Shown one piece after another: positions 1-47,166 of a DNA stretch of 64,000 nucleotides (its first letter is position 1; every line of letters begins with the position of its first letter). The stretch is taken from the NCBI GenBank assembly GCA_022822905.1, contig JAJDYE010000029.1, forward strand, positions 124,001 to 188,000, read 5' to 3'. This DNA is from Acidimicrobiia bacterium. GTDB taxonomy: Bacteria > Actinomycetota > Acidimicrobiia > Acidimicrobiales > Bin134. Below the pieces are notes generated by a model that ran no database searches, had not been told where the DNA came from, and saw only the letters and a program-made list of their open reading frames with translations. Both the position numbers and the translations under genes were made by a program.

Positions 1-433
1 CGCCGTCGCGGCCTCGGGGTATCCCGGCGCCCACCACGTCGCCGCCGGCTTCGGCCACCGCTTCCGATAGGCGCTTGGGCACCGCATTGAGCCGCTGGAG
101 CGCCGGCCCCTTCTCCCACACCAGTACCAGATCGGTGGTTTCCAACGGTTGCTCCAGATAGCTCAGCAGGGGGCCGAGCGAATCCACGGTGGAGAACCGG
201 CCCATCTCCCGGCCCACTACCACCCGCCGCTCGGTGAGGAACGGCGGGGTCTGAGCGGCGTCCACCAGCGGGGCGATGTGGTAGTCGTCGTCTTCTAGGT
301 AGGCGGCCTCGGTCAGCTCGGCCACCATCAGCGACCGGTCGCCGTCACCCACCAGATCAGCCACCCGGTCTCGCACCGCATTGGACAACAGCACCGCGTC
401 GTCGCCGTGAAACAGCACCACCGTGGCGCTCAT
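1..433 (-). CDS. holA: DNA polymerase III subunit delta (HolA), N-terminal part; 3' end runs off the window
   Basis: Reverse-strand translation from ATG at 433: MSATVVLFHGDDAVLLSNAVRDRVADLVGDGDRSLMVAELTEAAY...; conserved comEA-comEC-holA neighbourhood. Confidence 0.8.
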   Translation of the reverse strand, partial: MSATVVLFHGDDAVLLSNAVRDRVADLVGDGDRSLMVAELTEAAYLEDDDYHIAPLVDAAQTPPFLTERRVVVGREMGRFSTVDSLGPLLSYLEQPLETTDLVLVWEKGPALQRLNAVPKRLSEAVAEAGGDVVGAGIPRGRDG

Positions 434-468
434 TGGGAATCCTCCACACACTGAAAGGAGGCGCTCAT
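430..468 (-). CDS. Candidate micro-ORF (12 aa, MSASFQCVEDSQ) bridging to holA start
   Basis: Starts in ATGA overlap with preceding micro-ORF and ends in ATGA overlap with holA ATG; GGAGG Shine-Dalgarno-like motif before holA lies inside it. Confidence 0.35.
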   Translation of the reverse strand: MSASFQCVEDSQ

Positions 469-503
469 TGGGGGAGCTCCCAGCCGGTGATGGGCGCGCT
501 CAT
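465..503 (-). CDS. Candidate micro-ORF (12 aa, MSAPITGWELPQ) bridging folP stop and the next micro-ORF
   Basis: ATG overlaps folP stop (ATGA); its TGA overlaps the next ATG (CAATGAGCGCC). Translation not demonstrated. Confidence 0.35.
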   Translation of the reverse strand: MSAPITGWELPQ

Positions 504-1342
504 GAGTGATTCCGCTGTTGTTGGAGGAGGGCGCTCATGAAGTCGGCCACCCGGCGGGTGCCGGCCACGTCATGGGCTCGGAGAATCCGACTGCCCAGCC
601 CGACGCCCAGCGCGTGGGCCGCCAGCGTGGCCTCCCGTCGGTTGCCCACCTCGGTTCCGGTCAGCGCCCCCAAAAAGCCCTTGTTGGACACCGACAGAAA
701 CACCGGATAGCCCAATTCCACCAACTCCTGAGACCGGCGAAGCAGTTCGGCCGACATCTCGGGGGTCTTGCCCAGATCGTGGCCGGCGTCGAGCATGATC
801 CGCTGCGGGGGGATCCCCGCGTCCACCGCCCACTGAGCCCGCTCCGACAAGAATCGGCTCACCTCCCCCACCAGTTCGTCGTACACCGGCTCGGGATCGG
901 CCACCCTGGGAGCGAGGCGTACGTGGCAGGCCACCACCGAGGCTCCTGCTGCCGAGGCTTCATGGAGGAAATCGGGGTCGGCGAATCCGCTGATGTCGTT
1001 GCCCACCACCGCCCCGGCGGCGTAGCTCTCCCGGGCCACCGAGGCCCGCCAAGTGTCCACCGAGATGGGCAGGTCGAAGCGCTTCCGCAGCGCCTCGATA
1101 GCCGGTACCACCCGGTCCATCTCCTCTTCCTCGGTAACCTCGGGGCCGGGACCAGCTTTCACCCCGCCAACGTCCAAGAAGTCGGCCCCCTCGGCCACCA
1201 GCTCCTCGGCTTTGGCCAAGAAAGCGTCGAAGTCCCAGTACTGGCCAGCGTCATAGAAAGAGTCGGGCGTGCGATTCAAAATGCCCATGACCAGGGCACG
1301 GGTGGTCACGTCATAGCGATGCGGCCCCAGCTCCACGATCAC
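500..1342 (-). CDS. folP: Dihydropteroate synthase
   Basis: MGILNRTPDSFYDAG, DVGGVKAGPG, ISVDTW, GND motifs typical of the DHPS family; GTG start. Confidence 0.9.
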   Translation of the reverse strand: MIVELGPHRYDVTTRALVMGILNRTPDSFYDAGQYWDFDAFLAKAEELVAEGADFLDVGGVKAGPGPEVTEEEEMDRVVPAIEALRKRFDLPISVDTWRASVARESYAAGAVVGNDISGFADPDFLHEASAAGASVVACHVRLAPRVADPEPVYDELVGEVSRFLSERAQWAVDAGIPPQRIMLDAGHDLGKTPEMSAELLRRSQELVELGYPVFLSVSNKGFLGALTGTEVGNRREATLAAHALGVGLGSRILRAHDVAGTRRVADFMSALLQQQRNHS

Positions 1343-47044: not shown

Positions 47045-47166
47045 CGCCGGCCCCCTGCCTACCAGAACCAGTTCAGACGAATCGCCACATAGCCACCAGG
47101 CCAGACCACCTCAGGTAAACCGCCGCATGGCCACCAGACCAGATCACCTTAGGTAAACCGCCGCAT
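47045..47166 (-). repeat. 38-bp-period tandem repeat (about 3 units) re-copying the rodA 3' end
   Basis: Minus strand: ATGCGGCGGTTTACCTAA (47166-47149), ATGCGGCGGTTTACCTGA (47128-47111), ATGTGGCGATTCGTCTGA (47090-47073). Confidence 0.9.

Follow-up and report, generated by a model that had tools for sequence, protein, structure and literature searches.

Whether ribosomes that have terminated on one gene can cross a gap to the next start, or need the two genes to overlap, has so far been debated on the strength of reporter constructs from two organisms. The junction between folP and holA in Candidatus Poriferisocius (Acidimicrobiales)—a genus that, judging from its name, we take to consist of sponge symbionts—is a natural test of how strictly the translation of neighbouring genes is coupled. 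In the window, a 64,000-nt stretch of a 3.8-Mb draft genome (G000), two short frames lie between these genes, each joined to its neighbours by an overlap of stop and start codons. The question is how such frames arise and what preserves them.

Anatomy of the folP–holA junction

The junction comprises the following features of the window, all on the minus strand:

500–1342, minus: folP, dihydropteroate synthase (Pfam PF00809, Pterin_bind, E 1.5e-62; open reading frame list)
538–500, minus: tail of folP, its final 12 codons and stop, forming the first 35-nt step (open reading frame list)
500–503, minus: ATGA, stop of folP and start of mini-ORF 1 (sequence; NTGA at the folP stop in 20/20 species)
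465–503, minus: mini-ORF 1, MSAPITGWELPQ and stop (sequence; peptide identical in G019, G003, and G005)
477–481, minus: GGGAG, weak Shine-Dalgarno-like patch for mini-ORF 2 (duplex -6.5 kcal/mol)
465–468, minus: ATGA, stop of mini-ORF 1 and start of mini-ORF 2 (sequence)
430–468, minus: mini-ORF 2, MSASFQCVEDSQ and stop (sequence; ortholog in G020 MSASFQCVEDSP and stop; absent from G019, G003, and G005)
441–445, minus: GGAGG, Shine-Dalgarno-like site for holA (duplex -9.3 kcal/mol)
430–433, minus: ATGA, stop of mini-ORF 2 and start of holA (sequence; NTGA overlap at the holA start in 20/20 species)
1–433, minus: 5′ part of holA, DNA polymerase III delta subunit (Pfam PF06144, DNA_pol3_delta, 1.8e-4)

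The holA gene runs past the window edge, where its Pfam match is cut, and has 337 codons in its own genome. Each 35-nt step at the junction starts with ATGAGCGC; read on the minus strand, the steps begin with ATGAGCGCC (538), ATGAGCGCG (503), ATGAGCGCC (468), and ATGAGCGCC (433), at a spacing of exactly 35. The frames follow one another in the order folP (ending in MSALLQQQRNHS and its stop), MSAPITGWELPQ, MSASFQCVEDSQ, and HolA, which opens with MSATVVLF. The first-pass annotation had placed GCTCAT on the plus strand at 428, 463, 498, and 533 and had each TGA overlapping the next ATG as ATGA, both of which can be read directly in the sequence; its figure of about 57% identity between two units is reproduced by recomputation (20 of 35 bases in the two mini-units). 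Its chain of four units is right as to the 35-nt steps and the peptides, but two of the four are mini-ORF units, the outer two being the folP C-terminus and the holA start.

Similarity at a lag of 35 is raised in this array (z 2.2 and 2.6); divergence between the units is too great for Tandem Repeats Finder to call it. Within the same genome, the junction is the only place with the pattern TGAGCG-N20-48-TGAGCG-N20-48-TGAGCG (two overlapping matches; control 0). In other genera the triple pattern marks mostly unrelated repeats. Being unique in its genome, and with its architecture recurring across the genus, the window array is not a chance pattern.

Copy number across the genus

Twenty-two genomes of the genus were examined, and 20 (G000 included) hold a complete folP–holA junction. 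Units were traced by following frames from the folP stop rather than by motif search, and the species are phylogenetically non-independent. Six species have no mini-frame (G011, G015, G002, G021, G016, and G004), nine have one (G019, G003, G005, G008, G018, G013, G014, G001, and G010), and five have two (G000, G020, G006, G007, and G012), so that the architecture is present in 14 of 20. The unit length is 35 nt in 18 of the 19 units, with a single 44-nt unit in G010. All 19 are open and NTGA-linked, with ATG, GTG, or TTG as start codon. Instead of the fixed chain of three frames first described, the junction thus presents a series of gains and losses, with zero, one, or two units that tandem duplication and deletion probably produced.

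On a tree of folP and holA, whose backbone is poorly resolved, about eight changes in copy number are needed. G000 and G019 encode identical FolP proteins and differ by only 0.03 at folP fourfold sites, yet they carry two units and one, respectively; gain or loss therefore occurs on short time scales. Among other Acidimicrobiia, a direct NTGA overlap without a unit is the usual state. A separate lineage of that class (L119, JAKAQW010000134) carries an independent folP–holA chain with steps of 125, 44, 44, and 44 nt, its repeats near-identical and GTGAGC-linked. Within the genus, G016 (L020) has a longer FolP C-terminal tail that differs from the rest (297 codons counted), and no mini-unit.

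Probable birth of units by tandem duplication

The 44-nt unit of G010 is a chimera of the holA head and the folP tail (43/44 identity) and thus a fresh tandem duplication. Similar chimeras of a downstream head and an upstream tail are found at other junctions of the genus, namely L215 (35/35), L065 (41/41; G005:C167, rbfA-truB, named from protein sequence), L071 (38/38), and L219 (33/35), and all five have a length of 2 mod 3. Such chimeric mini-ORFs are what results when a tandem duplication spans the overlap. Neighbouring units also resemble each other above chance in G007 (32/35), G006 (26/35), and the window; in G012 (13/35), similarity above chance was not found.

Older units bear a weak likeness to their own folP tail, with 9.6 of 27 interior bases matching in phase against 7.2 when rotated, and it is on account of this weakness that we infer, rather than read off, a duplication origin for them. 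The holA head was considered as a source of the 35-nt units and rejected (6.5 in phase versus 7.2 rotated), MSATV in G008 and G018 being the exception. The motif ATGAGCG stands both in the folP tail and at the holA start, and the two copies lie 35 nt apart even where units are lacking (G002, G011, and G015); hence the unit length of 35 nt. Duplications of 0 mod 3 yield an N-terminal extension of the downstream protein (L072 and L073), whereas those of 2 mod 3 yield a relay. The sole 1 mod 3 case seen is a 37-bp ×3 duplication at another gene junction (L067; G014:C1:1879910), which stays linked by GTGA and TGATG overlaps in alternation (peptides VSD and MERWTPSWW, each with its stop).

What is conserved within units

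TGAGC, at unit positions 2 to 6, is invariant in all representative units, whereas only 1 of the 27 interior positions is: a G at position 27, part of a purine patch that lies 9 nt upstream of the following start. Position 1 varies between A, G, and T, as start-codon bases do. Interiors of the representative units share a mean identity of 38% and are thus nearly saturated, and between close species they change at about the pace of fourfold sites (unit 1 of G000 and G020, 7/35 versus 0.26–0.28; G008 and G018, 4/35 versus 0.14–0.20). Because TGAGC is invariant while the interiors drift at this pace, boundary and frame are held and the peptide is not. The openness of the interiors is weak evidence by itself, since the chance of being open is 0.68–0.96 per unit and its product over 11 units is 0.087. 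A strong, conserved Shine-Dalgarno site in each unit was also sought and discarded, the signal over all units being modest (KS p 0.013); a strong GGAGG does precede holA in G000 and G020.

The proposal of selection on frame made in the first-pass annotation therefore has to be divided. Comparison of the 20 species reveals no frame-breaking indel in any unit, and all 19 retain their frame and link despite changes in copy number, which supports selection on the link across the genus; the conserved features are the TGAGC boundary and the step length, and not the 12-aa peptides.

Mini-ORF 2 (window 468–434; L008, L003) is identical at 34 of 35 positions between G000 and G020, though unit 1 matches at 28 of 35 and fourfold divergence is 0.26–0.28. 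The same mini-ORF is missing from G019, G003, and G005, all of which are closer to G000 than G020 is. Interspecies recombination or a special constraint are both possible. The fourfold divergences of folP and holA also disagree (L003, L004, and L005), at 0.06 versus 0.13 between G000 and G005 and 0.17 versus 0.11 between G000 and G003, which hints at recombination close to the junction.

A proposed translational relay and its alternatives

The mini-ORFs probably arise by tandem duplication across the NTGA overlap and relay ribosomes by termination-reinitiation, with selection keeping the link. This proposal builds on the anatomy, the copy-number variation, the invariance of the link, and the fresh duplications of G010 and other junctions, all of which are observed; ribosome traffic along the relay, a dependence of HolA output on it, and a like origin for the older, diverged units are inferred. 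The ATGAGCG copies in the folP tail and at the holA start would serve as short direct repeats for slippage, and a duplication of 2 mod 3 would create a new short frame running from the old overlap to the copied one. A ribosome finishing folP would then reinitiate, translate 12 codons, terminate, and reinitiate again until it reached holA, with no untranslated stretch to cross on the way. Duplication would add units and deletion between the ATGAGCG repeats would remove them, with selection acting on the link (NTGA and frame) and not on the peptides.

In Escherichia coli two-reporter work, a gap of +38 nt lowers reinitiation by 80%–100%, and the final 15 nt of the upstream gene are enough for it (PMC10666635); a 35-nt insert that stayed untranslated should thus break the coupling to holA, and 12 codons should suffice. 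Gene pairs differ in how far reinitiation depends on a Shine-Dalgarno sequence and in how efficient it is, and it often falls short of completeness (PMC6728339). Several observations run counter to the relay: holA has its own GGAGG here and may be initiated de novo; over all units, the Shine-Dalgarno signal is modest; chance openness is high; and an outgroup genome contains 27 NTGA chains per 400 kb without duplication similarity. The relay is the simplest account of why solely link-preserving arrays are seen, and ribosome passage along it is a prediction from sequence.

An unlikely alternative is that the units are a neutral leftover, i.e., decaying spacer duplications upstream of a holA whose own Shine-Dalgarno site drives de novo initiation, with open frames incidental in G+C-rich DNA. 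Interiors evolving at roughly the fourfold rate, the high chance openness of each unit, and the strong GGAGG upstream of holA in G000 and G020 would all be expected on such grounds; the TGAGC boundary that stays invariant amid saturated interiors, the 18 diverged units without an indel, and the exact ending of every unit in NTGA would not. The number of units might also act as a dosage rheostat that governs what share of ribosomes arrives at holA, with each reinitiation losing some of them and selection on the HolA level relative to FolP adjusting the number. Such a rheostat would come on top of the relay rather than replace it, and would suit both the two-against-one difference between G000 and G019 and the incomplete, pair-specific nature of reinitiation; copy number, however, shows no sign of tracking anything, and its gains and losses are trendless, which leaves such tuning quite improbable.

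That the 12-aa peptides are functional small proteins is very doubtful: four species share MSAPITGWELPQ, their coding sequences differing by a single synonymous change, and MSASFQCVEDS is the same in G000 and G020, but those four species are very close, units are gained and lost, and between clades no similarity extends beyond MSA. Least credible of all are ATGAGCGC boxes acting as protein or RNA binding sites 35 bp apart with the frames as a by-product, for although the period is regular and conservation extends two bases past the stop codon (TGAGC), the boxes always lie at frame ends, their first base varies as in start codons, the period becomes 44 in G010 with the frame kept, and six species have no extra box.

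On the relay reading, evolution has repeatedly put 35–44 nt between coupled genes, and the overlap chain is kept in every surviving case seen. If translation confirms it, the junction would provide in vivo evolutionary evidence for the overlap requirement and a simple birth route for small ORFs.

Comparison with known systems

The MIRUs of Mycobacterium are apparently mobile elements that insert at gene starts and carry an ORF coupled at -4, probably with little effect on expression (Supply et al. 1997, via review PMC12548453). The units described here are likewise short repeats at the start of an operon gene, with a small ORF coupled at -4 to the next gene, and are probably tolerated since expression of that gene is kept. 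As in MIRUs, the small ORF sits at a DTGA stop/start overlap and overlaps both neighbours (19 units, 14 genomes), and copy number varies between species (zero, one, or two units). MIRU units measure roughly 46–101 bp, and the present ones, at 35 nt, are set apart by their size. A dispersed repeat or mobile element was rejected as an explanation, a 241-nt junction query returning one match in its own genome, and the arrays are not classed as MIRUs because of this result. The other relays of the genus are unrelated, locus-specific sequences; MIRUs are related elements at many loci, whereas the Poriferisocius arrays are local and would derive from tandem duplication of the junction itself. The junction would be a local, duplication-born relay, MIRU-like in its action at DTGA sites without being a dispersed element.

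Termination-reinitiation (TeRe) at ATGA overlaps (PMC6728339, PMC10666635) shares the NTGA overlap, the expected mechanism, and a strict distance requirement. Judged from sequence alone, the junctions have the overlapping or very close stop and start of a TeRe pair, with NTGA at every junction and in 20/20 species at holA. TeRe usually involves one overlap between two genes; here, up to three are chained via 12-codon ORFs, and how many differs from species to species. Ribosome-delivering short upstream ORFs (review PMC12548453; synthetic, PMC13255528) similarly feed the next start, their peptide being dispensable, but they start de novo, whereas the present ones would be fed by termination on folP. 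Minisatellites (VNTRs) likewise gain and lose tandem copies of a unit of constant length; by contrast, the units here have diverged to 38% interior identity while keeping frame boundaries and a length class of 2 mod 3. The similarity of neighbouring units expected of a tandem duplication array is seen in G007, G006, G010, and the window, but not in G012.

Generality beyond folP–holA

ATGAGCG pairs 20–50 nt apart, counted in the genus with folP–holA excluded, are spaced at 2 mod 3 in 37 of 56 cases (35 of these open), against 26 of 128 among the matches listed for other genera of the order. Fisher probabilities (4e-9, or 3e-7 with obvious orthologs merged by hand, among the matches listed) are no more than indicative because the outgroup consists of matches listed, some genus matches are intragenic, and the rows are non-independent. 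In 400-kb samples of two genus genomes (G007 and G014) and an outgroup (G027), enrichment of NTGA chains as such was not seen (25 and 32 versus 27 per 400 kb); many of these chains are chance, being about as common in G027. Chains whose duplication similarity, taken at the length of the step, reaches z ≥ 2.2 number 4/25 in G007, 9/32 in G014, and 0/27 in G027. Overall, intact tandem duplications are no more frequent in the genus than in the outgroup, with 9 and 21 per 400 kb versus 32 in G027.

A genus-wide duplication relay is thus a lead rather than a result. Tentatively, and with a little less than even confidence, NTGA-spanning tandem duplication may be a general and continuing route in this genus to translated 10–15-codon ORFs between coupled genes, with selection retaining lengths of 2 mod 3, which give a relay, or of 0 mod 3, which extend the N-terminus, and coupling deciding which insertions survive. 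A literature search, with most subscription journals outside its scope, found no earlier reports of local NTGA-spanning duplications.

Further NTGA-linked mini-ORF relays in the genus include L065 (G005:C167), L064 and L063 (G010), L071 and L066 (G021), L215 (G010:C86), L219 (G000:C23:178187), L225 and L217 (G018 and G009), and L218 (G005), several of which are perfect tandem duplications of their junction. Elsewhere in the window, at 47091–47166, a 38-bp tandem duplication lies at a gene end, with the stop CTAA on the minus strand.
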